DNA of 64,000 nucleotides from an uncultured Clostridia bacterium (GTDB lineage Bacteria; Bacillota; Clostridia; Lachnospirales; Lachnospiraceae): contig CAMYZE010000010.1 in the NCBI GenBank assembly GCA_947303805.1, positions 1-64,000 of the forward strand, read 5' to 3'. A program made the translations under genes and the position numbers. Within the stretch, counting starts at the first letter, position 1; each line of letters opens with the position of its first letter. The notes beneath the pieces are model-generated. The model was not told the DNA's origin. It was given only the letters and a program-made list of their open reading frames with translations, and made no database searches. Positions 5,573 through 29,083 of the stretch are shown here, piece by piece.

Positions 5573-5578
5573 ATTTTA

Positions 5579-5607
5579 ATTATATCACAAATGACTCATT
5601 ACTACAA
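5579..5607 (-). promoter_or_regulatory. Promoter of rsmE, predicted leaderless start
   Basis: Minus strand: TTGTAG (5602-5607), a 17-bp spacer and TATAAT (5579-5584) with a TGn extension. Seven bases downstream is 5572, the A of the rsmE start codon. No SD is present, so the mRNA would begin at or next to the ATG. Confidence 0.55.
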
Positions 5608-5612
5608 AATAA

Positions 5613-5634
5613 AAAGGATGCTGCTGCATCCTTT
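5613..5634 (-). terminator. Terminator after divIC
   Basis: The arms AAAGGATGC and GCATCCTTT form a 9-bp stem with a four-base loop. On the minus strand it is followed by TTTTTATTTT. It ends the hup-rqcP-divIC transcript just past the divIC stop. Confidence 0.85.
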
Positions 5635-5637
5635 ATA

Positions 5638-6151: not shown

Positions 6152-6154
6152 TGA

Positions 6155-6427
6155 TTAGTTCATCATATCCTTGAAAGACTTGCCAGCTTTGAACTTTGGA
6201 GTCTTAGAAGCTGCAATCTTAATTTCCTCGCCAGTTTGTGGGTTTCTACCAGTTCTAGCCTTTCTATTAGATACATCAAATGTACCAAATCCAGCTATAG
6301 CTACTTTCTCACCACTCTTAAGAGCTGCTTGGATAGTATCAACAAATGCATTTACAGATGCCTCACTGTCCTTCTTTGTTAATCCAGTAGCCTCAGCAAT
6401 TTTCTCAACTAAATCACCTTTATTCAT
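6155..6427 (-). CDS. hup: HU family nucleoid-associated DNA-binding protein
   Basis: 90 residues, the standard HU length. It starts [20 protein letters not shown] and has the beta-arm signature [20 protein letters not shown] and the end [13 protein letters not shown]. The start at 6427 is chosen because TATAGGAGG lies five bases upstream; the open frame extends further upstream only through noncoding promoter sequence. HU bends and compacts DNA. It is the first gene of the hup-rqcP-divIC operon. Confidence 0.96.
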
Positions 6428-6492
6428 AATTCCTCCTATATATAGGCTATTGCCTATTGATTTTATTGGACTTTTAAAGCCCTTAGACATAT

Positions 6493-6520
6493 ATTTTAAT
6501 ATAAAATTGCAAAAAGTCAA
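6493..6520 (-). promoter_or_regulatory. Promoter of hup
   Basis: Minus strand: TTGACT (6515-6520), a 16-bp spacer and TAAAAT (6493-6498). The predicted start is near 6486, leaving a leader of about 60 nt before the hup ATG. Confidence 0.65.
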
Positions 6521-6570
6521 GTAAAATCGGCATTTTTTTGATATTTTTTAACCACTACATATAGTGGCCG

Positions 6571-8328: not shown

Positions 8329-11300
8329 CTACTGAGCGTTGAGGGCATTGGTTAAGGCGACATTCTCGCGTCCTCGGTCGGCTGCATCTTCAGACATGTA
8401 GTGAAGTTTGCCGTTGTAAGTTATCACACCCACCTGCATAATTCCCTTTGCATCGAAGAAGAAATTGTCATATGAGCTTCCAGTGTTCTTTATAGCATAC
8501 ATTCCATTAGTGACAATCACTGGAGCACCTGCATCTGTAAATATTACAAAGCTCCACGAATTTCCTATAGGGTCGTATATCCATACACCTGCATCAATTT
8601 TCTTCACGCCATTAACTGGTTGTATATATTCACCATTAGCATCAAATTCATATACTATGCCATCTATTGTCTTTGCTCCAGAACATAGTGCTCCAACATA
8701 TCCTCCGCTTGTCTCTCCATAGTACATAGTGCCGTTAAATTTTATGAGTCCTACAAGCATTACACCATTTGAATTGAAGTAGTAATATCTTCCGCTACTC
8801 ATTCTATATATTCCGTTTGCAAGACAATCTAATCCATTCACTCTCACTGACTGATGTGGAATAGTTAAGTTTTCATATGCGTCTTCAGGTCTTACATTAA
8901 GTCCATATATCCAATAATTAATATTAGGATCATAAATCCAAGCACCCTTTGGTGGAATATTGTATACACCAGGTTTATTTTCAATCATTCCAACATATCC
9001 ACTTGACATAGCGCCACCAGGAAGTGTTCCTCCTCTGGCACCTCCTCCGCCGCCTCCGCCACCACCGCCTCCGCCGCCACCACCTCCGCCGCCGCCACCT
9101 CCGCCGCCACCACCATTATACTGCCAAATAGCGTAGATGTTTATTTCAGAAGTTCTAGGACTATCATTTTTATAATTACTATTAAGAGCATAATTCGTGC
9201 CACTTCCATTTGGATTAGAATTATATCTCAATAAAGTATAATTAGCTTCACTAAATGTCGCAACTAACAAATACTCTTCACCTCTCGCTAGTGCTACTAA
9301 TCGAGTTGCCGTTCCGCCGTGTCCATTTGGATTCATTACCAATGTATAGTTGTCATAAGACCAACATGCATAAATAGTTACATTTCCACTTTCAGCTTGA
9401 GCTCTTGTAAATGTGCCTCTAGGTAAAGTTGCAGCATCATTAAAGTCTATAGGGTTAGCCTCTCCACTAGTTTTACTCCAACCTTCGTATCTCATATCAG
9501 TACGGCTTATCGCACCAGTATTTGAAATTAAGTGTATAGGTTCACTTAGTGTTGCAGTCATGCTCATAGAACCAGAGCCACCATTATTGTCAAATGTAAT
9601 AGTGAAGAATATTTCATTGAATTTAGAATTGTACTCAACTGTGTAGCCATCTATCGCTGACAGTCTACTTACATTAGCATTTGCATTAATCTCAGAAACT
9701 GAAGCAGCAGTCACTGCAACGAACTTATCAAATCTCCTCCATGCATCAGATGGTGACGATGGTACAGTTACCACATCATTGTACTTTACATTATTAACTC
9801 GTTTTAATACTGTACTTCCATTCTTAAATATGACATTGTACTTTATCTCATCCCAAATAGCATAGAGTTTTATCTCTTTTCCGTCTATATCTTCCTTGAC
9901 CTTCGTTGGGTAAGTAAGTTCTCCTCCATCTGATAACCAAGCAGTAGTTGATGTAGAACTTAGTGCCCAACCTACAAACTTGTGTCCTGTCCTTGTAAAT
10001 GTATTTGCATTTACACGAGTAGTCACACTTAATGTTGCATGTTGTGGTGACATAGGCGTTCCACCATCTGCACCATTACTATGATATGCTATAGTGTATC
10101 TTACTTCATCGTATTCAACAATATAGTTAAATATCGCATCATCTTCTTCAGTGAGATTAGTTATCAAGTCATCTGGATTCAAAGTCTTATATTCATTTTT
10201 TGGCATTATTGAAGTAGTTGCTTCGCCATGATAAATAGTGTTTACCCACTTATATCGACCAAACTTATATTTTTCTTTCTTAAATCCATCGGCATTAGGC
10301 ACCGTAGCAGTTTTAGCATATTCAGTGTCTATCCTCTTATCAGCACCTTGTGTGCCTGTGCCCTTATTAAATACGAGTGAATACTTGTTTACTTCCCATA
10401 CAGCATAGAGTTTTATCTCCTTGCCATCTATAGTCTCATCAACCATTGTAGGGTACACAAAAGCCCCTTTATTAGAAATCCATATATTAGTTGCTGTAGA
10501 ACTCGTTGCCCAGCCAAGGAAGTGATATCCAGTTTTAGCAAACTTATTCTCATTTATATAAGTGTCAGTACTTAGTGTAGCTCTCTGAACTGACATAGAG
10601 CCACTAGTCGCACCATTTCCATCAAATGATATAGTATAAGTTATCTCATCAAATGTAGGCAAATAAGTCACAACCGCATCGTCAACCTCTATGAGACTTA
10701 CTACACTTTCATTTGCTTGTAATACTAATCTATCAGGTTTTGCTGTAGTAGCTACATGCAATATAGAAGTTGTAGAGTATGTAAAGTTTCTAAACTTATA
10801 TCTCTGTCTTACAAATGCCTCTGGCATAGTAGCAACTTCAAAATATGCGAGATCATTATACTCAGCTCTACTACTCTCGCTTTCGCTTTGTTCTATTATT
10901 ATAGAATAATTTATTTCTTCCCACATAGCTGTGAGTATAGCTTCGTCATTTGTAGTGAGATGATTATAGAGATTTATTTGCTCTCCCTCTTGGAGTAATC
11001 TATCTAAGCAGCTTGCCTTAAATCCTAAGAACTTAAATCCTCTAACTCTAAAGTCATTTTCAGGTATGGTAGTTATAGTATTTCTTGTAGCTCTAGAACT
11101 TGGTATGTTGCCAGTTATGATATGCTCTACTCCATTTATATCTCTTGCCACACCTCTATTATAGATTACGCTGTAAGAAGCAACATAGTCTATAACAACA
11201 TCATTTTCTCTACGATCTACAGTCAATGCTCTGCCTCTGCTCTTATCAGCACTAAATACTTGTTTATAAATATTAGTAGTGTATCCTTCTACATGTGAAG

Positions 11301-14300
11301 CATCCCAATTAGTGTATATAGTACCTGTAGCATCATCACTGTCAAATCCTATTCCAGTCATTTTAGAATTTACTGCATCTATCTTTGTGCCAGTTAATTG
11401 ATTGATAAATCCTGACGTGTTTTTAGATAAGATACCATATAGTACGTAGTTATCAGCTTCAGCACCATTGTATAATGCCTTAGCACCGTCAACTACTATG
11501 TGACCATTACCGATATCCAAAGTATCAATATCATTGCCGATATAAATCACAGCTCCTGTTGCATTTTTGTAAGTCTGTTTACTAAAGTTCTTGTAATCCA
11601 TCTTATTATCTTGCATCTCTAAAGATGAATCATCATTAAGACTTATCTTAGAAGTTGTTATGAATCTATCATGATTTGCAGTATTTTCTTTTAAGATGGT
11701 ATTGTTGTTAATCTTAACTACAGCATCATTATTCAAGATAAATTCATTTGCACCTATGTTTATGAGCATGCAAGCTTCTGCAGTTTCATTATTAATTATC
11801 TTTGTCTCTCCGCCATTAAATACCAGGTCATTATTTCCACTATAGATAAGTGCTGTAGTTAATCTCATACTTGGGTCAGTCCAACTATGAACCCATGCTC
11901 TACCAAACTTAAATCCATCTATAGTAGTGTCACCCTCAAATATAACCTTTCCTGACACAGATTTAATTACACCATAATCAAGCTTTGCCTCAGTAGTATT
12001 TATAAACTTAGTATCACCACTGAATACAAGTTCGCCTTCATTTTCAATTACTGCGTTTAATACCTTACCAGACCTTAAATTGTCTTTTATAGTAGCATCC
12101 CCATCAAATACAAGTTTTCCTGTGTCTGTTATGAATATTAATGAATATTCTTGGTTGGCATTATTTTGTATACTTATATCACCAGATAAATAAGTTTTGT
12201 TAGATACATTTATAAACTTATTTGATACGTTGGCCACATTGTTTTCCATTCTAAAGTTACTTATAGTAGCCACTACACCAAGATCAAGCATAGTATATAT
12301 TGATCTATTTGTATTATTATTTACGATGCTTAAATTTTCGGCACTCAACTTGAAGTCATCTCCGCCATTTGCTTTCAAGATTTCTCTAATCAAAGTATTG
12401 TTTTCAATAGTTAAATCATAAAGTTCTGTATCAACTTTATCAACATTTATCAAATCTAAATCTCTGTTATTAAACTTAGTTATACTTGCACTTGATAATA
12501 ATAGTCGTGCATCTTTGTCAGTTGCATAAGTCATATTAATCAACTTATGTTCGCCGCTTACCGCCCCAGCAGTCTTAGGCATTATAAACACATTGAATAA
12601 CTCCAAGTCATTCTTTGTACTTGCATTAGCATTAAACATCTTATCAGCACTAATTCTAATAGTGCGTTTGCAAGACACTATGTTTACATTTATATTTTCA
12701 AATAAAACATCATTTTCTCTTCCGGATATCTCACCATTGCCTACACAATCTGTTATATTAAGTTTATAGTTAGTACCGGCAGGCGCTGTGAACTTAGCAT
12801 TAGTTATCTTATGACCATTTAAGCAGAGACTTAAGTCGCCAGTAAGTTGACACTCACCGCCAATATCTAAATCTTCATCTAAGTAATATCTACCTTTCGT
12901 CTTTAATCCCGAAATGCTATTTTCATAAATAAAATATAGTATAGAAGATGCGTGTGGTGCTATGCCTTTATGAGTAGAGCAAATGCTAGTATCTTCTACT
13001 CCACAAAGAGTATGAGCCATAAGTTCAGGTCCTATATATACATTTCCAGCCAAAACTACAGTTTTAATGCTTGGTCTAAGGAATGTGCTTGCCACAAATA
13101 TCTGACTAGCAGATGCCTTATCTATATCCTTGACTTTTGCGGCAGACCAGTCTACATACACAGTTCCACTACCATTTTCTTCATCATTGTCAAATGCTAT
13201 ATCACTTATCACAGAGTTTACAGCATCAAACTTGGTTCCTGCTGTCTGCTCTATAATTCCATTTATATTCTTAGAATATATAGCAAACAAATGGTTGCTT
13301 GAATCTGACGCAGTATCATTTATAGGAGTATTATTTCTTATAACGACAGCGCTACTTGCTATCTTAAATGTCTCTGACTCTTTTAAGTATATTATAGTAG
13401 ACCTTGTAGCACCTACTACACCGGTGCAATCAATTTTATTGTTCTCTACATATAGACTTGAGTCTCCTTCAAGTGATAAATTATTAGTTTCTATAAATTC
13501 TTGCAAACTAGTAGCATTTCTCTTTATAGTATTTGAATCTATAGTAAGTTTAGAATCTACTAATCTTATCTCATTAGTGAAACTCAAGAACTTAGTAGAA
13601 GTGGTTGTATTACAATTCTTTATTGAAACATTTGCATCCTCTAAAAGTAAACTATTATTTGCAGTTTGCATCAATCCATAGTTTGCATCTTTATATTCCA
13701 CATTTTCTATAGATATTTCACCTCTGTATGTGATGCTATTTGCATTAATGAGTTTGTTGCACTTTACTAATTCTACATCAGTATCATTCATATATAGACT
13801 GCCTGATCGTAAATTTAAAAAGCAACCAGCTGAACTATCAATATCATATATATATGAATTATCTATAGTCACATCACCAGATAAAATATCTATAAGATTA
13901 TTCGCTTGATCATTGGAGATATTTATTAACTTAGAATTAATTATAGTCATGTCGCAATCTTGTAATACTATTAATCTGTTACTAAAAATACTTTCAATTT
14001 TTTCTAATGTAGATTCATATATAAGTATTTCTCCACTGCGTACAGTAATAAATGATCCATTACCACCAAAAATATCACTGAGTGTTGATTTAACAATCGA
14101 CAAATTGCCTGATTCTAACCATATCAACTCTGCAAGACTACTTTGAAGGCGAAGCAAATTAGAATTTTTTATCGAAATATCACCATTTTGCACATTAATA
14201 AATGCTTTTTGATACCCGCCAAGTAAAGCATCCATATTTGAATTTAATATAGTTAAATCTCCAGATTGCAAATCTATAAACTTATCATCAGACGATTGTA

Positions 14301-17300
14301 TATCAAAGTTAGCTATGCTGCTACTTGAAAGTATGATATCAGTTTTATTTGCTGTTATGAAACTTCCCTTAGCACCAGTAATTGCATCTTCTCTAAAGTC
14401 AACATTATAAAATGTCATGCTATTCGTACTTACTGTGTCTCTTGTCACATTTACAAATTTCTTTGTCTTTATAGTGATAGAACTTGTAGATAAGATATTT
14501 GGATATGTATCGTTGAACATAGGGGCATCACCATAATCTTTACTAATTGTGACATCATTTCCTCTACAGTTAGTTATATACACTTTATATCCATTTCCAT
14601 TAGTTATTCTAAGTCTATTTAGAGAATAACCATTTAGACATAGATATAAGTCTCCGCTCAAAGTAAATTGATTACCAGCCGGATTATCTATATTTTTAGC
14701 AAGGAAGAACTTACCTCCTGCCGCCAAAGTTTCTGCTCTATAGCAAGGTTTATAATTTAGCAACTCTTCATGAGGAGCTATTCCTTCATGATGGCACAAA
14801 CTACTTGTAGCAACTCCACAGGCAGTATGCTCGTGTCCTCCATATGCTACCCAAAGGTCTCCTTCTACCATTCTTATAGTGAGATATGGGTCATCAAATT
14901 TATAAGGTGTAAAGTGAGTCTTATACATAGTGTCTGTGTATCCACTTACATTTGTAGCATTGAAGTTTTCATAAACTTTACCCTCAATTGAATTGAGTGA
15001 TGGGCAGATACGAATATTTTCTATATAAGTATTCTCACCATCAAGTTTTGTGCCAGGAGCTTGTACTATAAATCCATTGGTTGCAATAGATTTAATACCT
15101 GAAACAACTAGAGCATCTGACTCCTCTAATATAGTATTGTTATCTTTAATATAAATATATCCATTTTCAATGTTGATATATTTGCCGTCTTTTATCTCTA
15201 CTATTCCACCATCAATATTGTACTTATTATGTATATTATTATCTTTAATTACTATACTTGAAGTTCCCTTTAAATTATATCCGCCATCCACAGATAGCAA
15301 TCCACCTTGCGAGTGCTTAACTTTATTGCCAGTTACACTTAGCAAACTATTATTCATCTCAAATTCTACAGCTCTAAGTACATAACTAAATGTTGTACTA
15401 TCTACGTCATATGTAGTATTAGAAATATTTAATATTGCATCATCCATCGATAATTTTCCAAGAGGGAAATAGAATATAGACGAATCCTCAGAACAATCGC
15501 CAAATTCAAAATCAGATATATTTACATTTCCACCAATCTGCATATTGCCTGCAATTTTAAATGCATGATATCCAAGTTTTTCCTGCTTAAATGTCGTGTT
15601 GCCTACTATACTTATAGTGGATTTATTAGGGTCACTAAACCACCTTTCTGCGAATATAATACTCTTTCCTCGTGCATGATTGTTATTTTGCACTAATGTA
15701 TTTCCATCAAATGTCACAGTAGCCGCTGGTGGTGTAGTAGATGAATCATATGGAATATACACAGTCTCTTGTCCAAAATTATTATCAGCTATAGTCGTAT
15801 CTACAAATGAAATATTAGCAAAACTAGTCTTTACAAGCATGTCAAGATTATTATTATTAAATTTAGAATCTATAATCTCTACATCACCCTTATCCAAATT
15901 CAAAATACTTCTACGATAAGGAGACTCTGTTTTTATACTATATCCTGCTACACTTATACTTGAAAGCACTACATTTCCTAGTACACTGCTCTTCATAAAG
16001 CCATAATTATTTGTAGTTATTTCGCCTGATTTTCTTTGACCAAACTTTACGTTATAATACTCTGCTTCATAATAATCTAATGAATAAGAATCACCATAGA
16101 AGAATAATTTGTCAGTTTTTACTTCTATAGTATTATTAGAAATTATGCCTCCTGACACATTAAAATAGAATGTACGATCTTCTGCCACTTCTATTGATCC
16201 TCCACCCACACAGTCAGTTATATAGACATTATATTTTACATCATAACTATTAGGATAAATTTCACAATTTACCATTTTATGACCTGCTAAACATAGATAT
16301 AAATCTCCCGTAATAGTCATTCGGATGCCAACCAAATCCTGTTCTAACACATAGCAGCCATTTTGTGGTGGATTTATGCTAAGATCTACATCCGAACTAG
16401 GGATATAATTCATAGTTGCTGTATGAACAGCTATTCCTCTATGTGTACAAGTATCGTGTTCGCTTGTCCCACAGAGCTTATGAACATGCGGCAGAACTCC
16501 GATCTTTACATCATTTCCATACATAAATGTTTCTACAAAGCTATATCTAACTGTATCAGGTCTAAATACTTCTTTGTGGATGTCAGGAGTATATCCTTCT
16601 ACTGTCTCACTAGTCCAATTCTTAATTACATACCCTTCACCATAAAGTTTTTTTGTAGCCTTACTATCATCGAAAATTATGCTATCTATTATACTGTCAT
16701 TTGCATTTATCTTGGTGCCGTCAGTTTGTTTCAACATATAATCTACAGTAGAGCCTGTCGCAATAGCATATAATCCAAATACGTGCTTTGAAATGCCAAA
16801 ACTTGCACCTACATCTATAGCACTATTACTTGCTATACGAATAATTGTATTTGAAAGAGTAATAGCATTGTCATTTTTTTCTACTAAATAAACACTTGTT
16901 CTCGCAGTAGATAAATTGTCTCTACCATAGAAACTAAAATTATTCTCGCTCAAATCAAATTTAGAATTTCCAACAAATGTCAATCCCTTGTAACCATTAA
17001 ATTGAATCATGCCAATATTTTTATCTTCAGACATATTTCCAGCAAATTTATTATTCTTGACATTTAATTCACCATTTCGTATCTCAAATATAACACCTGC
17101 TTCCCAATAATAACCACGATATCCAAAGAGGTTAAATAGAGTACTGTAGTCAAGATAGCCATTTGCATTGGTAGTATAAGTCAAATCACAGTTCTCTATA
17201 TTAAGGCTTCCACCCTCTATTATGAAACTATTTAGTCTACCACCATAAATAAAGTCAACTGAATTTGTATCCACTTTAGTTCTTAAGTTTTTAACTGTGG

Positions 17301-20300: not shown

Positions 20301-23300
20301 AGTCATCGGTATATCCAAGCACATGGCTACTGTCAAAGTTCTCTGCTATGATACCTCTGCCAGTACCAAAAAACTCACTCGTCTCATCTGCATAGTTATA
20401 AGCTATAGTAAGTTTAGATTCTGATGCTCTAAAACTTGTGCCAGTCATCTTAAATGTAGTAGGCATATTATTAGATGTTTTATAATCAGTGTTATTTCCA
20501 GCATCGTAGACTTGATAACAATACTTATTATATTTAGAATCAGCGCATGTATTGTTATATACATTTATAGTTCCGTTTCCAAGTGTGAAATCACCCGCTG
20601 TCTTAGATTTAAATATGCCAGTAAAAAATCTATTTGGATATTTAATACTTGTGAGATCATTTGTAACAGTATTGTTAGTTATCTCTATGTCGCCATTATT
20701 ATATACATTTGTATTATCGCCAAGATATAGACAAGATAATGCTTTATACTGCTTACTTGCTTGGTTAGCCATGCTACAATTAGATATTTTCAGTTTAGCA
20801 TTTTCATTTATTGTAAAATTAGTATTGTATAAAGATATAATATTTTGCGACCAAACTCTACCACTAACACTATTATTAAAGCTTAATTCTCCATCGTGTA
20901 TAGTTATATTTGTATTTCCACTAAGGTTAGAACGAGTTGCAGAAAATGCAGCATTACCGATATTATATACATCAAAATTATTTATTCTATTAACTCCATA
21001 GAAATTTAAATCAACATTATTGTTTAATGACAATATAGAATGGCGACAGTCCACAGTCTTAAAGAGAGTATTTTTAATATATACCTTCTTGCCATAATGA
21101 TTTTCAGGACTGTCATCGCCTATAGATGCAAGGCTTTTTACTTTAATATTATTTGCATAAACATTTTCCATGGCAAGATATGAATCCATAGCCGTCATGT
21201 CATTTTTAATATCGATATAGTTACAGTCATAAGCACTTTGAGTGTCATACGCAGGAGGTGCCCAAGTAAATTCTACATTACTGAATACTTTTTTATTCGT
21301 ACTAGTGCCTGTATGTAAAAGCAATGTATTAATTTTTAAATTATATACTGGTAAATCGTCAGTGCTCTGTGTATCGTCTTTTATACCATACACATATGCA
21401 TCTACATTTCTAAATGTCCTATGATCTTCTGCTGTAACTGGGTCAGTATAATCATATACAAAACCAGACTGTATAGTAGATTGATTTGTGCTACAGTTAC
21501 AAATAACTATCTTAGCATCTGTATTTCCAAATCTTGCATTTTTTAAACTATGACCATTTAAGCAAATATACAAATCACTTGTTGGGCTTATAAATCTCCT
21601 TGTCTGCAAATCAAAATCTTCTGTCAAGACATATCGACCGCCCTTCTTTATCTTACTTATATTTGTATCTGTGTCATCTACAAAAATCTCATAGCCTATA
21701 GTTTTAGTATGTTGTCCTATCGCATCTAAAGTGTGCTGGCAATCTCCAGTTACTCCACACTCTTTGTGGAAGTGATCTATAGGGAACATTTTTACTACTG
21801 TTCCTTCAAGTTTAAGTTGTCCACCAGCTACAGAAGGAGTTGTAGGCATCTGCACCTTAAATACATCTCCATAGTAAAGTTCGCTAAAGCTACTTACACA
21901 TTCTTCTTTCCATTGATTATATACATTTCCACTGTAAATAAATTCATCATCCTCATAATTATAAATCGCAAAATTGAATTTAGAGTTTGCATCAAGTTTA
22001 GTACTTGGGCTCTGAGTGAAAACATACATACTTGAGGTTCTAGTACTACCCTCATTACCTTTACCTATATCAAAAACTTGATGTCTATCATAGCCTTCTT
22101 GATTAAAATCAGTAATCTTAGTATATCCATCATCTTTATAAGAATAATTATCTTTAACTATGATTTTTCCATTACCGAAGTCTATATTTTTTTGAGCGCC
22201 ACTTGTGCTACCATCATAATCATAAAAAGCGAATATACGATTAGCATTATTTGTAGTCGCACAATTAATTATTTTGTTGTCAGTGACTGACAGATCACCA
22301 TATAGACGAGACCAAACAGTAGGTTCAACTTTTACTACAGTAGTGACATCGTCACTTTTTCTTATAACTTTATTGTTACTTATAGTTAATTTTGTATTTT
22401 CAGTGATATAAAATTCTGTTTGAGAAGCGCCTGTTAGATTCAATGTTTCTTGACCACTTGAACAATCGTGGATATTTAACTCACCATCAGCAACTATTAA
22501 ATATTTAGCACGTAAAATATTTCCATGTGCTACATTCATATCATGAATATCAACTTTTCCATAAGTTTTAAGTTTAGTCTCATCACGCCAACCATCAAAA
22601 ACTAATGGTGTAGCATCTGCCAGGGTGGTATTATAAGAGCCGAAATTGCAAATCTCTACATCTTTTAGTTTCATATCTAAGCTTGGCACACGAGCACCTC
22701 CATCTGCAGTTGAAGTAGATACAAAAGTTTTGGAATTGTTGCTTCCTGCAATAAATCCATCTACATATCCATTTTCAATACTTACATGACTGTCCCAACT
22801 TATATGAATAAATTTTGAATTATCACCAGAATCTGCTGAAGTTATATTAACACCATACATATGTAAGTGACTTGAAGTCCAGATAACTCGGAAAAAGTCA
22901 TTTGCCTTAATTTTTAAATTTGATGCTGAAGCAGTAGTACCTTGTCCAGATACATAATTCTTAGTAACTCCATATACATTGGCACTAATATCATAAAATG
23001 TTTGTCTATTTGAATCTATAGTAGCCTCTTGATCTAAACAGTTTGTTATATTAATTATTTTACCAGTACTATTACCATTTGACCTAAAATTTACATTCCT
23101 AAGGACATGACCATTTAAACATAAATTTATGACAGAATTTATATACATTGCTGTAGAATAATCAGTAATAGTTATATCACTTGAAAGCACATAATTCTTT
23201 GGTGAGTATGATGCCATCAAATTTATAAATTCAGATTGAGTTATGTCAGGACTAAGAAATTCAAAAGTAATTCCATTATCATGAGATGCTATCTGAGTAT

Positions 23301-26300
23301 GTTGACATGCTTCATTTGCAGCCACACCACAAACTTTATGATAATGTTTATTGATATAAACTCTCGCACCACTTAAAAGAACACTTGATCCAAGTCTTCT
23401 ACCACCAAAGCTATAGATATCTGGCACAAATGTATTTTTATAATTAGCTGATGTAAATTCTTTTACATACTCATCAGACCACTGTGAGAATACCGTTCCC
23501 TTGCAATTAGCATTGTCAAAGCCGAATCTTATTAAAGAATTTTTAGCATCCAATTTCTTACCATCCGTCACTCTAAAGATACTGTAGATTGGATCATCTT
23601 CCATAACAGATATGATGCCATTAATTTTGTGAGCAGGGTAATTATCAAAATCAGTCCACTCAGTAGTAGCAGCTACATCACTATAAGATTTATTATTATC
23701 AATGTAAATTATAGAATTTCCCACATTTATAGGTGTGGTTGCAGAATTATATTTTATGAGGATGACATCTCCGACTGCATTTTCAGTAGTACAATCTACA
23801 AGTTTATTGTTTGTCAAATATAAGTTACCATATACATTGAAATTATTTACTATATCAATAAGTGAATATGTGCTATTATGTCTATATATTTTGTTGTTAT
23901 CCACATAGAAACTTGCACCTTCAGCAATAGTGAAATTCTTTCCAGAGTTAATAAGTGGATTATATCCATCTACAGTGTTATTTCTAATATAAAGACTACC
24001 TGAATTTATTGTTAATTCGCCTCCAGGTTCATCATTACTAATATTGAATATTTCACCATACATATTGTTGTTGTCTATGTAATTGTCTGCTTCGAATAAT
24101 AACCTGTTTCTATTTCTAAGATTGAAAAATTTTGACTTTTCGTTGATATTAAGTGCTGTCTTACTAATAGATGCAATAGTTACATTCTTAAAATAGTTGT
24201 TTATTACATTTGTATTGTCGCCTATTAATTCAAATAAATATCCCTGTTTGTTGCCCCAGTTCATATCTCCCACATATACATCTTCTACATATATGTCATC
24301 ATTTGATTCAACATGGAACATAGGATATGAAGTATTATATAAAGTATTACTTACCCTTATATCTGTCTTATATAAACTAAACTCATCTTGACTCATATCA
24401 TAATATACATGATGGCTATTGATATTTATATTATTAACTTCCAGATCATCATAAGCTGAACCATAGACTTCCAAGTCTAGATTTTTAAACATAGGATATT
24501 CATTTTCTTGTACTAATGTCTTTACAGGGAATGTCATATTTGCAGTAGTAAACTTACAATTAGTTATTACTAGATGAGAATTATTACCACCATTAAAACT
24601 TACACCGCTAAGACTGTGACCATTTAAGCATAAATACAAATCAACATTTTCATTCACTTGTAGTAATTCATTGTCATCAAGTTCTATATTATCCATCAAA
24701 TAATAAGCTCCGCCTGTGTTGCCTATATTTCTCAAATCTGTAAGACTCGTCACAGCTACATATGAATATGTGGCAGTGTGCCTAGTGCCATATGTATGGG
24801 TACAAGGACTACCCTCTGGATTTCCGCAAGCAGTATGTTCGTGAAATAATCCAAGCGACAAAGTAACATTTGTTAAATTTCTATTCATATATACATCTTG
24901 GAATTGTCTAGCAGTATCGCCATCATAATAATCAACTATTATGCTTTTATTAAATGCGGCAGTATCTATATTCTTTATATGACTTGCATCATAAGGGGCA
25001 AGTACATTACCAGTTACATTTTCAAATGCTATATAGAAGTTTACTTTTGACATATCAAGTAAATATCCATCAAGTACAGTAAACACTGTATCCTCAGTAC
25101 TGCTATCATCAATAGTAGAATAAACTTGATACAAATATTGATTTGGATATGTAGTAAAATCTGTAAACTCTGTAACTCCATCATCAGTATAGTTCTTATT
25201 TCCCTTAACTGTTACTGAAGATGAACCGATATTAATTGTTTTGTTGTTTCCATTTAATGCTGAGAGTCCAACACCCAAACCAAGATCCGTGTTAGCATTT
25301 ATAACTTTATTGTCAACTATTTCAAGTTCACCATAGATGTTGGCTTCTCCATTTGTATAAGTGCTATCAGTATTATTTAATGATAGTATGCTTTGATAAT
25401 CAGAAGTACTACGAGGAAGTTTATTGTAAGCAATATGCAGACCGCCATCCTCTGCTACATTTAAATTAGTAATTTGTATAAGATTTTTTGTATCAAGTGT
25501 AGCATCTTCTATATAAGAGTTGTGCATGATGAGTGTGTCACCATTTTCAAATTTAACTAAACTATTAGTGCCACTTGTCTCTGCATGATATATAATCTTG
25601 TCAGCGACAGTATTATTTGAGATTATATTTTCTCCCTTAAATGTCAAATCAATACCATCAAGATATACCAATCTATGTTTAAGTTCATTCTCTATAAAGG
25701 CTGTGTCTTTTATATTTACAACTGAGCGGTGTGACATATCTCCTTCAAGTTGAAGCATAGCAGTCTTTTCAAACGCAACTGGTGATGGATAGTTATAGTG
25801 AACTTTAAAATCTTCAAAATTACATTTTTCTATATACACAGTCTGAGATTTTTCATTTGATGTCTTAATCTCTATAGGAGAACCTGATGCAGTAGTTTCA
25901 TCATAATTTCCCACAAAATCAATATTGAAGAGTGCTAAAATATCATCTGGCTTAGTTCCAGAAGTTGCAGTATCCATATGTGCAAAATAAATCTGATTGA
26001 CATTTGCTACTAAATTAGTGCCACTGCCATCTTCTAAATCAACACCAAATACATTATATGAAACATTTGATGCGAGATATGACCCACGACCATCTACTCC
26101 ATCTCCTCTATTGTTCTTCAAATAAGATTTAGTATCTATAGAACAATTGCAAATATATACATGCTTATCTAAATTAGTTGAAGTGAACTCATAATTTTCT
26201 AAAGTGTAGCCGTCGAGACAAAGATATAAATCGTTTTGCAACTCTAATTTAGTAGGCGAAGTACTTTCATTTGCAACATTTTCCAACAAATAATAATATC

Positions 26301-28911
26301 CACCTTGAACTACAGTACTTCCAAAATCCTCTGCTACGAGAGGTTTATATAATGAGGTACCAGTATGACTAGGTATGTCTTCGTGGGCACAGTTAGAATC
26401 AGATGCCACTCCACAAATCTTATGATCGTGTGGTGGTAAAATTCTTATTTCTTCATGAAATTTTGTCAACTCTAATCTTGGATCTAAGAAATTATCAACA
26501 TGGAAGACATCATTATATGTAACATCATTGAAATGAGCTATATATGTATCATTCCACTGATTCGTTATGAGTCTGCTCTCATCTGACTTTGTATATATAC
26601 TAAACGAATTATTAAGATAATCAAACTTTGAGCCTTCCAATATCTCAAAGATAGGATAGTCAAGACCAGTGCTTAAAGCAGTCGCAAACTCATGAGGATA
26701 ATATCTTGGATAAGTATCAAAGTCTGTAACTTCTACAGTCATATCTCCATCTGAATATGATTTGGTATTAGAAATTGTAATACTACAAGTACCAAGTTTT
26801 ATAGGTTTCTGACTATCTTTAACTATGGCTCCAAGTACAGCATTTTCAAAATTTGGGTTAACATATTTCTCTGAATTACAATTAAAGAACTTTGTATTTG
26901 TTATATTTAGTTTACCAAGTATCTTAATATTCTCTACATCACCACCTGTATATATTAAAGCAGCATGTGGTCTCTTACTATCACCCTCATTTGTCGCAGG
27001 AACATTCATTCCAATGTTATCAAAGTTTACTATCGCATCTTCAGCAATATTCAAATTTGCATTTTCACCTTTAAGCATTATAAATATATTTGAACGAATC
27101 GCACAGTCATGAATGTTTGTTGTTCCAGATTTAAAGCTCAAATCAAGAGGTAGGCTTTCATCAGTACTACGTCTAAGCCAATCTATAAATGCACTTAGAA
27201 ACATAACTGAATCCTCAGTATCGATGTTATATATATCATTATTTCCAATAAATTTTATACTATGTTTCCTTCTATAGTCATCATTACAATAAAAGAATGA
27301 ATGTCGCAACTTAATGTCACGAGCAGTTACGTTTTTAAATGTTACGTTACAGACTTCATAGCCAGAAGTTTCTATGAATTTATTAGTGTATATATTTTCA
27401 AAAAGACAGTTTTCAATATTGTCATTATACGATTGTGAAATACAATAATCGGTAAAGCCTTCAGTATTTACATCAGCCACTCTCACACCGTATAAATCAA
27501 TATGACCTACATTTGAGGGATCTTGTGAACGATATAACTTTTGGGTAACAAATTGCAAATTGTAGCCATCTTCTATAGATTTTTCATTTTCACTCATTTT
27601 AAGACCAAATGCATAAAGATTAACATTTCCAAATAATCTTTGACTGGTATACCAATAACCTTTATCAGTGCTTACTGTTGACAAAGTTGTTGTACAATTT
27701 GTGAAACATAATTTTTTAAAATTACTAGACATTGCAGCATTACGAATATTAAAACCGTTTAGGCATAAATTTATATCATGATTGATTGTCACATCTGTAT
27801 ATGTTGTCATAGATAAATCATGGGTTAGATAATAACTTCCATCAGCATTCTCAAAAAAATCTTCAATTTCATTGTTGAGATTTCCATCACCATCTGTATC
27901 AGTGAGAATGACAGGTGTATAGTCTATGCTTTCATCATGGCTTGCCACCAAAGTATGAGTACATGCACTAGTAGATGCAACACCACAGAGTTTATGATTA
28001 TGCTCCCCTGTATTTCCAAATAATTTGTCGATACCTTTCACTTTAATTTCAGACTTTGATGCCAAATCAAAAACAACTGGCTCTGAAGGCGAAGCAGTAT
28101 CACCCTCCAGATCAGTTGTCTCTTCTATATTTGATTCAGTTGCTACCTCTGTTGTCTCTTCTATATTTGATTCAGTTGCTACCTCAGTTGACTCATCTAA
28201 ATTAAAATCCGAAGTGCTCTCTTCTTCTGCACTTTCTACTTCAGAACTTGTAGCTTCTAAACTTTCTTCATCTAAATTTTCTTCTTCAGGGCTCGTAAAA
28301 CTCGCCCCTACATCTTCTTTTGCCTTCTCTTCATCAAAACTCTCAGATGATTCACTCTCATCACTTGAGCTTTCTTCATCTAAATTTTCTTCATCTGAAC
28401 TTTCAGATGATTCACTCTCATCACTTGAGCTCTCTTCATCTAAATTTTCTTCATCAGAACTTTCAGGTGATTCTACCTCATCCTCTTCTGGTTCCTCTTC
28501 ATAATTTTCAAAGGCATTTTCTTCCCCATCATCATCTTGCTCGTCAGGTTTATCCATATTATCATTTTCATCCAGGTTTTTATCAGGGCTAATTGAACTT
28601 TCATCAGAATTATCTAGATTACTTGAGTCATTAGATTGATTCTGCTTGTCCAATTCATCCAAATCAATAGAATCTTGACTTTGGCTCTCTAAATCCTCCG
28701 AATCACTATCGTTAAATAAATAACTGCTAGTTTTGTATATAGCACTATAGTGTTCGTAGTAGTATCCTACTCCTTTCGACTCAGCAACCAAATCATTTGA
28801 TTCTGCACCCAAAGTTTTCACAATGGAAACAGCAAAAACACTCATTCCATTGGTCGTTAATAACATTGCCACAATTAAAAATGTGGCAAGAAATCTTTTT
28901 AAATTACCCAT
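8329..28911 (-). CDS. Giant secreted modular surface protein, 6,860 residues
   Basis: A single uninterrupted frame of 20.6 kb. Order: Sec signal peptide (residues 1-28, ending SVFAVS); acidic Ser/Glu/Asp stalk (about 60-290); ten modules of 480-760 residues (about 300-5900); eight InlB/Flg_new-like repeats (about 5907-6597); 25 glycines (6600-6624); and C-terminal cell-wall/choline-binding-type aromatic repeats (about 6650-6845). Each module opens with an HxHxxCG...CxH motif, then a strand motif of the type DLYLCLNGHSL, then Asn-rich strand repeats typical of right-handed beta-helices, and closes with a GTVYxNW...GYT..IYK.VF block. No sortase LPXTG motif is present, so wall attachment is probably noncovalent. 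The start has AGGAGA four to five bases upstream. A role as adhesin or surface fibre is inferred. Its stop codon lies in element-like sequence. Confidence 0.93.
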   Translation of the reverse strand: MGNLKRFLATFLIVAMLLTTNGMSVFAVSIVKTLGAESNDLVAESKGVGYYYEHYSAIYKTSSYLFNDSDSEDLESQSQDSIDLDELDKQNQSNDSSNLDNSDESSISPDKNLDENDNMDKPDEQDDDGEENAFENYEEEPEEDEVESPESSDEENLDEESSSDESESSESSDEENLDEESSSDESESSESFDEEKAKEDVGASFTSPEEENLDEESLEATSSEVESAEEESTSDFNLDESTEVATESNIEETTEVATESNIEETTDLEGDTASPSEPVVFDLASKSEIKVKGIDKLFGNTGEHNHKLCGVASTSACTHTLVASHDESIDYTPVILTDTDGDGNLNNEIEDFFENADGSYYLTHDLSMTTYTDVTINHDINLCLNGFNIRNAAMSSNFKKLCFTNCTTTLSTVSTDKGYWYTSQRLFGNVNLYAFGLKMSENEKSIEDGYNLQFVTQKLYRSQDPSNVGHIDLYGVRVADVNTEGFTDYCISQSYNDNIENCLFENIYTNKFIETSGYEVCNVTFKNVTARDIKLRHSFFYCNDDYRRKHSIKFIGNNDIYNIDTEDSVMFLSAFIDWLRRSTDESLPLDLSFKSGTTNIHDCAIRSNIFIMLKGENANLNIAEDAIVNFDNIGMNVPATNEGDSKRPHAALIYTGGDVENIKILGKLNITNTKFFNCNSEKYVNPNFENAVLGAIVKDSQKPIKLGTCSITISNTKSYSDGDMTVEVTDFDTYPRYYPHEFATALSTGLDYPIFEILEGSKFDYLNNSFSIYTKSDESRLITNQWNDTYIAHFNDVTYNDVFHVDNFLDPRLELTKFHEEIRILPPHDHKICGVASDSNCAHEDIPSHTGTSLYKPLVAEDFGSTVVQGGYYYLLENVANESTSPTKLELQNDLYLCLDGYTLENYEFTSTNLDKHVYICNCSIDTKSYLKNNRGDGVDGRGSYLASNVSYNVFGVDLEDGSGTNLVANVNQIYFAHMDTATSGTKPDDILALFNIDFVGNYDETTASGSPIEIKTSNEKSQTVYIEKCNFEDFKVHYNYPSPVAFEKTAMLQLEGDMSHRSVVNIKDTAFIENELKHRLVYLDGIDLTFKGENIISNNTVADKIIYHAETSGTNSLVKFENGDTLIMHNSYIEDATLDTKNLIQITNLNVAEDGGLHIAYNKLPRSTSDYQSILSLNNTDSTYTNGEANIYGELEIVDNKVINANTDLGLGVGLSALNGNNKTINIGSSSVTVKGNKNYTDDGVTEFTDFTTYPNQYLYQVYSTIDDSSTEDTVFTVLDGYLLDMSKVNFYIAFENVTGNVLAPYDASHIKNIDTAAFNKSIIVDYYDGDTARQFQDVYMNRNLTNVTLSLGLFHEHTACGNPEGSPCTHTYGTRHTATYSYVAVTSLTDLRNIGNTGGAYYLMDNIELDDNELLQVNENVDLYLCLNGHSLSGVSFNGGNNSHLVITNCKFTTANMTFPVKTLVQENEYPMFKNLDLEVYGSAYDDLEVNNININSHHVYYDMSQDEFSLYKTDIRVSNTLYNTSYPMFHVESNDDIYVEDVYVGDMNWGNKQGYLFELIGDNTNVINNYFKNVTIASISKTALNINEKSKFFNLRNRNRLLFEADNYIDNNNMYGEIFNISNDEPGGELTINSGSLYIRNNTVDGYNPLINSGKNFTIAEGASFYVDNNKIYRHNSTYSLIDIVNNFNVYGNLYLTNNKLVDCTTENAVGDVILIKYNSATTPINVGNSIIYIDNNKSYSDVAATTEWTDFDNYPAHKINGIISVMEDDPIYSIFRVTDGKKLDAKNSLIRFGFDNANCKGTVFSQWSDEYVKEFTSANYKNTFVPDIYSFGGRRLGSSVLLSGARVYINKHYHKVCGVAANEACQHTQIASHDNGITFEFLSPDITQSEFINLMASYSPKNYVLSSDITITDYSTAMYINSVINLCLNGHVLRNVNFRSNGNSTGKIINITNCLDQEATIDSNRQTFYDISANVYGVTKNYVSGQGTTASASNLKIKANDFFRVIWTSSHLHMYGVNITSADSGDNSKFIHISWDSHVSIENGYVDGFIAGSNNSKTFVSTSTADGGARVPSLDMKLKDVEICNFGSYNTTLADATPLVFDGWRDETKLKTYGKVDIHDMNVAHGNILRAKYLIVADGELNIHDCSSGQETLNLTGASQTEFYITENTKLTISNNKVIRKSDDVTTVVKVEPTVWSRLYGDLSVTDNKIINCATTNNANRIFAFYDYDGSTSGAQKNIDFGNGKIIVKDNYSYKDDGYTKITDFNQEGYDRHQVFDIGKGNEGSTRTSSMYVFTQSPSTKLDANSKFNFAIYNYEDDEFIYSGNVYNQWKEECVSSFSELYYGDVFKVQMPTTPSVAGGQLKLEGTVVKMFPIDHFHKECGVTGDCQHTLDAIGQHTKTIGYEIFVDDTDTNISKIKKGGRYVLTEDFDLQTRRFISPTSDLYICLNGHSLKNARFGNTDAKIVICNCSTNQSTIQSGFVYDYTDPVTAEDHRTFRNVDAYVYGIKDDTQSTDDLPVYNLKINTLLLHTGTSTNKKVFSNVEFTWAPPAYDTQSAYDCNYIDIKNDMTAMDSYLAMENVYANNIKVKSLASIGDDSPENHYGKKVYIKNTLFKTVDCRHSILSLNNNVDLNFYGVNRINNFDVYNIGNAAFSATRSNLSGNTNITIHDGELSFNNSVSGRVWSQNIISLYNTNFTINENAKLKISNCSMANQASKQYKALSCLYLGDNTNVYNNGDIEITNNTVTNDLTSIKYPNRFFTGIFKSKTAGDFTLGNGTINVYNNTCADSKYNKYCYQVYDAGNNTDYKTSNNMPTTFKMTGTSFRASESKLTIAYNYADETSEFFGTGRGIIAENFDSSHVLGYTDDLYKSVFAMRQDQNTKVYEMIKDGSNVLIRFISHDHLECGASDSSECNHNLISTHTTEINYVPLSQWLLSSISNATFDWYYYIDDDCGQVLDFGGKTFNLSANTYICLNGKTLKNVRFTEPNPYGYKLYVTNCKDETATIDNGNLVFAREVEPNVIANNGTINFKGEMFADGITDAFTLYNIEFEGTGNDTAIPGTIYPLIEMREDYVATEKVIISSVSMTDYYKHFNAYNLYLLRFINIDVDIDNLKIFSNKMDPHGSYEDGRDVAFINYFMSSASGNRLAITNSEFYDNETFSLLSIPNTATATLDNVEITNNKFSKNIFEVTPEPAIGINGKVVISNNKIIRKTDAQCIINTKHVSFNNVGALEIIENMFDCADLTSTPTGKVSAVYVPAGSTYKIGNSYMVIKGNDSINVSYMYEYNNHVFGIYSETGRNDGFIEQLPNTKIKYDKCYVDTMAIGTSDGRGVVYKNWDADHVENYSDYCYEGIFIADPYSHGYAGVNRNGSTTHLEISVALQHHKICGCSPNKECNHRGIAPHTEILEYKPIIINSETRTFEANVKNGGKFFLYKDYTSFSDQEINLNGDLYLCLNGHSMTFNSTAFRLTSKEHGVYICNCSENEASFNMPATRYYSNQVKEYSMMSSGGKINATQRDAVIRVSSDSSALLGDLLFYNIEFRQYSDQTTSGFISDKIGSGLPTSNIIISSVSFVGIKGSNEYLYDGIISTQYNKCLKIYDTKFIDNVMYSNMIKGYEYQNSDAENVFDNVEFINNTMNPFGTNTYRPNMYWFSPISDSDDVKHTITNVKDYNNTYGRFFDLVKGDSFSIENFISRSSNLDTFMHLQHKNTATLSNITIDNSTMNCFIYSNSNEKVNITGLDFHDNIVNNTFMNLGLSTDVLLYGDNSIYDNTFGTTNTDANSGVFNTRTTGTVSGDINLTLDGQFRFKNNSVEKGSIFYINGNGLLDFAGESIFEDDGNHYINNGFINVTDTSPGHGTSKNIRIKGNTTVKNLRTKVDTNSVDFIYGGRLNSFIIEGGSLNIENCDLTYTTNANGYLDYSTLFNLFGYRGYYWEAGVIFEIRNGELNVKNNKFAGNMSEDKNIGMIQFNGYKGLTFVGNSKFDLSENNFSFYGRDNLSTARTSVYLVEKNDNAITLSNTIIRIASNSAIDVGASFGISKHVFGLYAIATGSTVDYMLKQTDGTKINANDSIIDSIIFDDSKATKKLYGEGYVIKNWTSETVEGYTPDIHKEVFRPDTVRYSFVETFMYGNDVKIGVLPHVHKLCGTSEHDTCTHRGIAVHTATMNYIPSSDVDLSINPPQNGCYVLEQDLVGIRMTITGDLYLCLAGHKMVNCEIYPNSYDVKYNVYITDCVGGGSIEVAEDRTFYFNVSGGIISNNTIEVKTDKLFFYGDSYSLDYYEAEYYNVKFGQRKSGEITTNNYGFMKSSVLGNVVLSSISVAGYSIKTESPYRRSILNLDKGDVEIIDSKFNNNNLDMLVKTSFANISFVDTTIADNNFGQETVYIPYDSSTTPPAATVTFDGNTLVQNNNHARGKSIIFAERWFSDPNKSTISIVGNTTFKQEKLGYHAFKIAGNMQIGGNVNISDFEFGDCSEDSSIFYFPLGKLSMDDAILNISNTTYDVDSTTFSYVLRAVEFEMNNSLLSVTGNKVKHSQGGLLSVDGGYNLKGTSSIVIKDNNIHNKYNIDGGIVEIKDGKYINIENGYIYIKDNNTILEESDALVVSGIKSIATNGFIVQAPGTKLDGENTYIENIRICPSLNSIEGKVYENFNATNVSGYTDTMYKTHFTPYKFDDPYLTIRMVEGDLWVAYGGHEHTACGVATSSLCHHEGIAPHEELLNYKPCYRAETLAAGGKFFLAKNIDNPAGNQFTLSGDLYLCLNGYSLNRLRITNGNGYKVYITNCRGNDVTISKDYGDAPMFNDTYPNILSTSSITIKTKKFVNVTRDTVSTNSMTFYNVDFREDAITGAKGSFITANKTDIILSSSSIANFDIQSSDDKFIDLQSGDLTILNSNMDALLGGYQKAFINVQNGDISIKNSNLLRLQSSLAELIWLESGNLSIVKSTLSDIFGGNGSFITVRSGEILIYESTLEKIESIFSNRLIVLQDCDMTIINSKLINISNDQANNLIDILSGDVTIDNSYIYDIDSSAGCFLNLRSGSLYMNDTDVELVKCNKLINANSITYRGEISIENVEYKDANYGLMQTANNSLLLEDANVSIKNCNTTTSTKFLSFTNEIRLVDSKLTIDSNTIKRNATSLQEFIETNNLSLEGDSSLYVENNKIDCTGVVGATRSTIIYLKESETFKIASSAVVIRNNTPINDTASDSSNHLFAIYSKNINGIIEQTAGTKFDAVNSVISDIAFDNDEENGSGTVYVDWSAAKVKDIDKASASQIFVASTFLRPSIKTVVLAGNVYIGPELMAHTLCGVEDTSICSTHKGIAPHASSILYFIYENSISGLKTKGRYYLDEDLDIGGECQLTGDLSLCLNGHKITNAKFTAPAGTNYKLNITDCVGNGEISGRENDVLFENINVNIVSCKRTIRISADKMFNANASTKNDLELFNVFIMPKTAGAVSGEHKLINMTYATDKDARLLLSSASITKFNNRDLDLINVDKVDTELYDLTIENNTLIREILKANGGDDFKLSAENLSIVNNNTNRSIYTMLDLGVVATISNFRMENNVANVSNKFINVSNKTYLSGDISIQNNANQEYSLIFITDTGKLVFDGDATIKDNLRSGKVLNAVIENEGELVFSGDTKFINTTEAKLDYGVIKSVSGKVIFEGDTTIDGFKFGRAWVHSWTDPSMRLTTALIYSGNNDLVFNGGETKIINNETAEACMLINIGANEFILNNDAVVKINNNTILKENTANHDRFITTSKISLNDDSSLEMQDNKMDYKNFSKQTYKNATGAVIYIGNDIDTLDIGNGHIVVDGAKALYNGAEADNYVLYGILSKNTSGFINQLTGTKIDAVNSKMTGIGFDSDDATGTIYTNWDASHVEGYTTNIYKQVFSADKSRGRALTVDRRENDVVIDYVASYSVIYNRGVARDINGVEHIITGNIPSSRATRNTITTIPENDFRVRGFKFLGFKASCLDRLLQEGEQINLYNHLTTNDEAILTAMWEEINYSIIIEQSESESSRAEYNDLAYFEVATMPEAFVRQRYKFRNFTYSTTSILHVATTAKPDRLVLQANESVVSLIEVDDAVVTYLPTFDEITYTISFDGNGATSGSMSVQRATLSTDTYINENKFAKTGYHFLGWATSSTATNIWISNKGAFVYPTMVDETIDGKEIKLYAVWEVNKYSLVFNKGTGTQGADKRIDTEYAKTATVPNADGFKKEKYKFGRYKWVNTIYHGEATTSIMPKNEYKTLNPDDLITNLTEEDDAIFNYIVEYDEVRYTIAYHSNGADGGTPMSPQHATLSVTTRVNANTFTRTGHKFVGWALSSTSTTAWLSDGGELTYPTKVKEDIDGKEIKLYAIWDEIKYNVIFKNGSTVLKRVNNVKYNDVVTVPSSPSDAWRRFDKFVAVTAASVSEINANANVSRLSAIDGYTVEYNSKFNEIFFTITFDNNGGSGSMSMTATLSEPIHLISNTGAISRTDMRYEGWSKTSGEANPIDFNDAATLPRGTFTRAQAESGNVTIYACWSYDNYTLVMNPNGHGGTATRLVALARGEEYLLVATFSEANYTLLRYNSNPNGSGTNYALNSNYKNDSPRTSEINIYAIWQYNGGGGGGGGGGGGGGGGGGGGGGGGGARGGTLPGGAMSSGYVGMIENKPGVYNIPPKGAWIYDPNINYWIYGLNVRPEDAYENLTIPHQSVRVNGLDCLANGIYRMSSGRYYYFNSNGVMLVGLIKFNGTMYYGETSGGYVGALCSGAKTIDGIVYEFDANGEYIQPVNGVKKIDAGVWIYDPIGNSWSFVIFTDAGAPVIVTNGMYAIKNTGSSYDNFFFDAKGIMQVGVITYNGKLHYMSEDAADRGRENVALTNALNAQ
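8400..8990 (-). repeat. C-terminal wall/choline-binding-type repeats of the giant protein
   Basis: Several aromatic repeats of the CW_binding_1 style (residues about 6640-6835). Examples are NGIYRMSSGRYYYFNSNGVM, GLIKFNGTMYYG and FFDAKGIMQVGVITYNGKLHY. The alternation of Trp/Tyr pairs and Gly-Val/Met turns matches modules that hold proteins on choline-decorated polymers. Choline itself as ligand is inferred. Confidence 0.8.
9040..9114 (-). repeat. 25-codon polyglycine tract
   Basis: Twenty-five consecutive GGN codons, mixed GGT/GGC/GGA, separate the InlB-like region from the wall-binding repeats. It is the most GC-rich stretch of the gene and a likely flexible linker. Mixed codons argue against simple trinucleotide slippage as the only origin. 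Confidence 0.95.
9118..11190 (-). repeat. Eight InlB/Flg_new-like repeats in the giant protein
   Basis: Eight units of about 80-90 residues (residues 5907-6597). Units such as YTISFDGNGATSGSMS...FLGWA...IKLYAVWE alternate with a second type such as YSLVFNKGTGTQGADK...KYKFGRYKW. The first type matches the Listeria-Bacteroides (InlB B) repeat. The strict alternation suggests expansion as pairs. Confidence 0.85.
11200..28010 (-). repeat. Ten large beta-helix-like modules in the giant protein
   Basis: His/Cys module openers lie near 27955-28008, 26383-26434, 24784-24846, 23280-23347, 21721-21775, 20161-20207, 18703-18760, 16430-16490, 14778-14838 and 12958-13020. Module lengths run from about 1.45 to 2.3 kb. 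Module 1 starts HNHKLCGVASTSACTH and module 9 starts HEHTACGVATSSLCHH. Each has one LCLNG-type strand: CLNGF, CLDGY, CLNGH (six times, counting modules 3, 4, 5, 7 and 10 and CLAGH in 8), CLNGK and CLNGY. The modules are well diverged, so the expansion is old. Confidence 0.88.
28115..28189 (-). repeat. 36-bp tandem repeat in the acidic stalk
   Basis: Two near-identical 36-bp units encode the dodecapeptide ESNIEETTEVAT. The nucleotide identity is much higher than between the large modules, so this duplication is recent. Confidence 0.85.
28289..28311 (-). repeat. Dispersed element copy in the giant gene
   Basis: An intact copy read as VGASFTSP. It is the only copy in the 20.6-kb gene and breaks the acidic Ser/Glu stalk with uncharged residues. 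Confidence 0.88.
28325..28480 (-). repeat. 60-bp tandem repeat in the acidic stalk
   Basis: About two and a half units with a 60-bp period, encoding the 20-residue unit SSDEENLDEESSSDESESSE. The high DNA identity points to recent expansion and probable length variation between strains. Confidence 0.88.
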
Positions 28912-28973
28912 GCCCTCTCCTACAAAATAATGATACTTTTTGTAAAAAGTCCAATTACTTATAATTCATATAT

Positions 28974-29003
28974 ATTATAACAAAAAATCGCGTGAAAATA
29001 CAA
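28974..29003 (-). promoter_or_regulatory. Promoter of the giant gene
   Basis: Minus strand: TTGTAT (28998-29003), an 18-bp spacer and TATAAT (28974-28979). The -35 box coincides with the loop of the upstream mfd terminator hairpin. The predicted leader is about 55 nt and ends in the AGGAGA SD. Confidence 0.6.
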
Positions 29004-29011
29004 TTTCACGC
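28990..29011 (-). terminator. Terminator of the rmuC-mfd operon
   Basis: The perfect 8-bp arms GCGTGAAA and TTTCACGC, with a six-base loop, are followed on the minus strand by GATTTTTTG. It lies about 70 bp after the mfd stop and overlaps the promoter of the giant gene. Confidence 0.8.
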
Positions 29012-29058
29012 ATTATTTTAGGCTAATTTTAATGATTTTTTAATATTTTTACGGGGAT

Positions 29059-29083
29059 GGGGCTCGTAAAACTCGCCCCTACG
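29059..29083 (-). repeat. Dispersed element supplying the mfd stop
   Basis: An intact copy. The mfd frame runs CAG-TCG-TAG into the element, so its last codon and stop come from the element's first arm. Confidence 0.88.

Follow-up and report, generated by a model that had tools for sequence, protein, structure and literature searches.

A putative wall-anchored, fibrillar adhesin-like giant protein with ten divergent beta-helix modules in a Lachnospiraceae genome

Results and Discussion

Organisation of the giant gene

The window analysed here is a stretch of 64,000 nucleotides from an uncultured Lachnospiraceae bacterium. Next to mfd, it carries a single unbroken frame of 6,860 amino acids that runs on the minus strand from an ATG at 28911 to one terminal stop at 8329; the five alternative frames over the same interval hold 300 to 1,072 stops each (Table 1). 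Translation bears out the frame announced by the original prediction, which had left the strand out. The terminator-like stem between mfd and the giant gene suggests that the latter is probably a transcription unit of its own, transcribed separately from mfd. The same stem is kept in a related genome (G006), where the ribosome-binding site of the orthologous giant gene is conserved as well.

Table 1. Position of the giant gene, its parts and its upstream neighbourhood in the window
Feature	Residues	Position	Strand	Basis or remark
mfd (transcription-repair coupling factor), neighbour of the giant gene		29079..32489	-	
Terminator-like stem, nearly symmetrical, then T-rich tail, between mfd and giant gene		28989..29012	-	consensus match only
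Ribosome-binding site AGGAG, few bases 5' of the ATG		28917..28921	-	read from upstream sequence
Giant gene	1-6860	8329..28911	-	translation
Signal peptide (MGNLKRFLATFLIVAMLLTTNGMSVFA)	1-27	28831..28911	-	read from sequence
Acidic E/S/D/T-rich region	28-302	28006..28830	-	composition
Module 1	303-826	26434..28005	-	
Module 2	827-1356	24844..26433	-	
Module 3	1357-1854	23350..24843	-	
Module 4	1855-2379	21775..23349	-	
Module 5	2380-2900	20212..21774	-	folded by AlphaFold2: right-handed parallel beta-helix
Module 6	2901-3383	18763..20211	-	
Module 7	3384-4139	16495..18762	-	longest (756 residues)
Module 8	4140-4691	14839..16494	-	
Module 9	4692-5297	13021..14838	-	
Module 10	5298-5913	11173..13020	-	
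Eight InlB-type (Flg_new, PF09479) repeats	5914-6598	9118..11172	-	Pfam E 3.1e-24
25 consecutive glycine codons, mixed GGT/GGC/GGA	6600-6624	9040..9114	-	
Choline-binding-type (cell-wall-binding) repeats	6625-6860	8332..9039	-	Choline_bind_3, below cut-off

The signal peptide claimed for the N-terminus could be read directly from the sequence, and the same type of secretion start opens all the giant proteins of this genome. The acidic region that follows begins with a tyrosine-rich patch (YYYEHY...LFNDSDS), similar in form in other giants, contains 84 D/E versus 7 K/R in 210 residues and is E/S/D-rich by composition, not SRR-like; it is probably disordered. The original prediction had described here an acidic stalk of nearly identical repeats. 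The acidic region is indeed present, but its repeats amount to two units, one of 20 residues (93% DNA identity) and one of 12-13 residues, both present in two copies, and the name of stalk suits better the InlB repeats on the anchor side. Apart from this small number of repeats and the strand, that inventory was correct throughout.

A palindrome-like short repeat (GTAGGGGCGAGTTTTACGAGCCC) occurs in at least 102 copies in the genome when up to 2 mismatches are allowed, versus 0 in the reversed control. Its copies in the window lie at 28289-28311, 29060-29082, 7062-8027 and 39604-62644; one copy is in frame within the acidic region of the giant, where it encodes VGASFTSP, and several are located within the adjoining FAD-dependent frame. 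The repeat resembles an element of the REP or MITE type that enters coding sequence.

A divergent module with an invariant header

The ten modules expected between the acidic region and the C-terminal repeats were recovered, with lengths of 483 to 756 residues, about 500 being typical. They are well diverged, as had been stated: identity to the nearest neighbour within the protein is 25-30% and identity to module 1 is 16-26%, yet 10 columns are invariant. In a wider alignment of 33 modules from five species, numbered by module 5 and with approximately 22% identity to the reference, nine residues are invariant, namely H3, C6, G7, C12 and H14 in the header, then C71, L72, G74 and C94, and the header residue H22 is kept in 32 of the 33. 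Every one of these modules opens with a header of the form HxxCG...CxH...H, followed by LCLNG...C. The spacing between C71 and C94 is mostly 22 to 27 residues, which corresponds to about one beta-helix coil, so that both cysteines are probably stacked on neighbouring coils. The header pattern itself is suggestive of a His/Cys metal or disulfide site.

The modules, whether searched singly or as the 33-row profile, matched no family in Pfam or NCBIfam; isolated weak single hits to DUF7659, Pox_RNA_pol, DUF2969 and EspA were rejected as chance matches. A sequence profile search of solved structures (PDB) with the same 33 rows returned nothing convincing, and no work on these proteins in Lachnospiraceae was present in the literature library searched.

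Predicted structure of the modules

Module 5 was modelled by AlphaFold2 from the 33-row alignment with a pLDDT of 84.6 (near 96 in the header) and a pTM of 0.90. Foldseek scores of this model were weak (best E 0.018, TM 0.2-0.3), the top matches being right-handed parallel beta-helices. VIA-align gave Z values of 20.2 with pertactin, 19.5 with the L. reuteri SRRP (5nxk), 18.5 with PfbA (3zpp) and 16-20 with tailspikes and polysaccharide lyases, PL6 lyases among them; Z values of 16-20 span about 260-340 residues, in most rows the aligned range starts at about residue 25, and the header mostly falls outside the fold region common to module 5 and known beta-helices. The original prediction had anticipated beta-helix modules, and the model of module 5, aligned with right-handed beta-helices, is in agreement with it: the predicted fold of the module is a right-handed parallel beta-helix. 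When viral structures were searched by Foldseek, tailspikes and other beta-helices were also matched; a phage origin of the modules was not adopted and these matches are read as a common fold.

A prediction of modules 5 and 6 together (12 rows) shows the beta pattern in both, with a pLDDT of 71 and a pTM of 0.60; the final strand of module 5 (516-521) is followed immediately by the strand of the module 6 header (524-526). A single stiff rod is plausible from this model, in which the orientation from module to module is given at low confidence. As a rough estimate, ten modules with about 20 coils of 0.48 nm apiece, together with the stalk, would make a fibre on the order of 100 nm.

Many of the closest structural matches are polysaccharide lyases, hydrolases and tailspike depolymerases, and relatives come from the ruminant forestomach, both of which would fit an array of beta-helix polysaccharide lyases or hydrolases forming a cell-bound machine for fibre degradation. 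That the modules are enzymes seems nevertheless very improbable to us, as no PL or GH family model was matched and as no catalytic-looking set of residues other than the header and the LCLNG...C coil is conserved among the 33 modules; moreover, function cannot be told from the fold alone.

C-terminal repeats and putative wall anchor

Eight InlB-type repeats had been claimed after the modules; eight are readable by eye and three are individually significant as Flg_new. The glycine linker is made of exactly 25 codons of mixed GGN type, as announced. For the terminal wall-binding repeats the claim stands in part: Choline_bind_3 is matched with an E-value of 5e-5, but its 23.6 bits stay below the Pfam cut-off of 27. 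Choline-binding repeats pass the cut-off in sister giants of 12,889 and 6,212 amino acids, and each genome of the genus has them at 28-60 places. No LPXTG-like sorting motif was found in the last 60 residues of the window giant, and a Pfam scan of its C-terminal 947 residues detected no DUF5776 and no SLH or known S-layer domain. The presence of choline-binding-type repeats together with the lack of a C-terminal LPXTG-like motif supports the surface location and the noncovalent hold on the wall proposed earlier; with such an anchor at the C-terminus, the N-terminus would point outward.

LicD is the usual phosphocholine transferase. It was found in the window genome (G000) and in nine of the 12 genomes of the genus, but two 95%-complete genomes of the genus lack it although they carry choline-binding repeats; choline may therefore not be the ligand of the C-terminal repeats.

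Choline-binding repeats are also found in the right half of the window, where several proteins of approximately 300-740 amino acids between 48931 and 58468 contain them (matches at 50866-50997, 52958-53089 and 57815-58270), which points to a further group of clustered surface proteins that are probably bound to the wall.

A set of giants expanded in one genus

The window genome (Lachnospiraceae, 1.9 Mb, 17 contigs, 98.6% complete) is matched by the module profile at 61 places, in seven long frames, and the window giant is thus one of at least seven. The others are frames of 12,889, 6,212, 5,542 and 14,230 amino acids on contig C1 and two frames of 3,115 and 3,079 amino acids cut by contig ends, all measured from stop to stop, the actual proteins being slightly shorter. 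The seven giants total 155.8 kb, or 8.2% of the genome bases. All of them have a secretion start and an acidic region (28-45% D/E), and the complete ones carry InlB repeats, choline-binding-type repeats or both, in numbers that differ from one giant to another; the second half of the 5,542-aa frame gave no choline-binding match, and the 14,230-aa frame has an InlB repeat between successive modules.

The two cut giants, at the right end of C1 (L018) and on C13 (L019), have near-identical starts and both stop at contig ends. They share 50-71% identity module by module and 96.5% DNA identity over the first 200 codons, which argues for duplicates or allelic copies. Perhaps the assembler failed to pass the repeat at these places, and the genes are truly longer or are alleles of one locus. 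Identity between modules reaches 75% within the 14,230-aa protein, versus 25-30% within the window giant, and the module tree indicates duplication within proteins; these contrasting values suggest that the arrays grew by duplication at different ages.

The genus comprises anaerobes of ruminant stomachs; named records, searched with a four-module alignment, place it among Lachnospiraceae MAGs that include a goat reticulum and a sheep omasum sample. The module is present in 10 of the 11 other genomes (species) of the genus, with open frames of up to 14,398 amino acids. Outside the genus, a survey with a header-plus-LCLNG profile showed that the module is rare: it turned up in 18 of 298 further genera in the family, in 22 of 390 further genomes sampled from the class and in 6 of 397 sampled from the phylum, mostly in proteins of less than 3,000 amino acids. 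The LCLNG beta-helix modules of other Clostridia (e.g., L085, L100-L108) have a comparable header, of the HxHxxCG...H..H type, and an LCLNG...C coil, but they are present in one to few copies, with no giant arrays in the sampled genomes, and their header is a weaker variant such as HKHCYCGG...GDHTSH or HKHPICG...H. The module is a surface unit of Clostridia without a family name, which this genus has expanded.

Probable exchange between species at the mfd locus

The start of an orthologous giant gene lies behind mfd in the sheep omasum genome G006. Over 2,014 codons, dS between the two genes is 0.146 and dN/dS is 0.285, with 12-13% of synonymous sites differing and approximately 94% identity over the coding part. 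As this frame with the same start was assembled independently, at least the first 30% of the window giant is no assembly artefact. By block, dN/dS ranges from 0.07 to 0.54, the maximum belonging to the N-terminal block, which includes the acidic region; the modules are under purifying selection (w 0.07-0.36 by 250-codon block). The neighbouring genes, in contrast, are near synonymous saturation between the window and G006 (dS 1.51 for mfd, 1.63 for pth, 1.22 for aroC and 2.0 for PGA_cap), and identity jumps sharply in the final 150-200 bases of mfd. The other giants are also near saturation between genomes, with pS of about 0.5-0.7 where alignable, so the low divergence is particular to the window giant gene. 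In G001, G007 and G011, the gene after mfd is the FAD gene, and no giant lies between the two. These data are in agreement with a probable recent exchange of the window giant between species by homologous recombination, one end of the exchanged tract being in mfd. Base composition gives no support to an import from a distant donor of different composition: the GC content of the gene (32.8%) is similar to that of its surroundings, with a somewhat lower GC3 (22% vs 27-33%). At the G001 site behind mfd (L069 16864-17695), there is no clean junction and about 800 bases of other sequence are present.

The main rival concerns the exchange only and attributes the low divergence to chimeric assembly of the G006 MAG, which is 55% complete, fragmented and has about 2% contamination, whose contig stops inside the giant gene, and in which a short fully identical run is located at the divergence break. 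We regard such a chimera as rather unlikely, since a tract approximately 94% identical is no copy from the window strain and its donor would need to be a third lineage, since mfd is intact across the break, and since absence of the gene at the same site in the three other genomes indicates gain or loss at the locus. This probable interspecies exchange, the presence of at least seven giants and the invariant His/Cys header all go beyond the original prediction.

The many giants per genome, the strong divergence of their modules, their very acidic N-terminal ends and the exchange at a fixed locus could also be expected of a mainly passive array with no specific ligands, acting as a shield, a spacer or a coat that varies antigenically, whether S-layer-like or as a decoy for phages or protists. 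This appears improbable: the purifying selection in the modules and the conserved headers favour a structure-bound function, and no SLH or known S-layer domain is present in the scanned C-terminus.

Comparison with known proteins and putative function

Huge bacterial proteins of more than 5,000 amino acids are known and are often surface proteins (PMC11573180). By its architecture, the window giant would work like a fibrillar adhesin. It shares with the fibrillar adhesin-like proteins of Firmicutes the great length, the signal peptide, an unannotated distal part, stalk repeats among which is Flg_new, a known stalk domain of fibrillar adhesins, and a putative envelope anchor, but here the distal part consists of ten large predicted beta-helices from a family without a name and not of one adhesive domain, and the anchor would be noncovalent (PMC9210967). 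By genome burden, the closest known set is Giant1-5 of Apilactobacillus kunkeei, several giants of 3,000-8,000 amino acids that take up about 6% of a small genome, with which the signal peptide, the beta-solenoid, the richness in asparagine, the C-terminus of wall-binding type and, apparently, the sequence exchange between lineages are shared (PMC12863079). In A. kunkeei, however, a single N-terminal beta-solenoid is placed on alpha-helical or other repeats, the ends are DUF5776 and the genes form one cluster, whereas in the present giants the unit repeated in tandem is the beta-helix itself, the ends are of the choline-binding type, the genes are scattered and the frames reach 14,230 amino acids (PMC12863079). 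The L. reuteri SRRP (5nxk) and S. pneumoniae PfbA (3zpp, 4mr0) are likewise right-handed beta-helices of Gram-positive surfaces, with 14-15% identity to module 5 in the aligned part. Apparent novelties are the header-bearing module family, its tandem use in very long proteins, the scale within one genus and the exchange that a whole giant gene seems to have undergone. To our knowledge, SRRP and PfbA have neither a ten-fold tandem array nor the His/Cys header.

Taken together, we think that the window giant is probably a secreted, wall-anchored, fibrillar adhesin-like protein with divergent beta-helix modules, belonging to a lineage-specific set of giants, and that its gene has probably moved between species. 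This is suggested by the beta-helix fold, with Z values of 15-20 to adhesins and polysaccharide-binding beta-helices, by an intact frame under purifying selection with the same layout in paralogues, and by Flg_new repeats together with choline-binding repeats found genus-wide. Pfam and NCBIfam recognised no known adhesive domain in the window giant, and this counts against an adhesin, as do the weak Foldseek scores and the missing LicD in two genomes. The protein would be exported by Sec and held noncovalently on the envelope by its C-terminal choline-binding-type repeats, while the InlB repeats and the Gly25 linker would form the stalk that carries the ten predicted right-handed beta-helix modules beyond the wall. 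In each module, the His/Cys header and the first coil pair with its stacked cysteines may act as a cap or join. Each module may bind or display something different, as would be expected from the strong divergence, and from the known uses of the fold the likeliest ligands would be glycans from plant fibre, from host mucus or from other microbes. The set would have grown by module duplication and divergence within the lineage, and the window giant probably moved between species by homologous recombination.

More tentatively, the header (H..CG...C.H...H) could possibly be a metal or disulfide joint capping every beta-helix and locking it to its predecessor, which would define a new class of self-jointed giant fibres and a swappable repertoire of the genus, with whole genes exchanged, here behind mfd. 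The header provides a testable hypothesis for how beta-helices could be linked in series to form very long rods. This 1.9 Mb genome devotes at least 8% of its length to giant surface proteins from a module family absent from Pfam and NCBIfam, and one giant gene is seemingly mobile at a single locus between rumen species, so that a role in the choice of niche or partner could be tested with strains that have the gene and strains that lack it.
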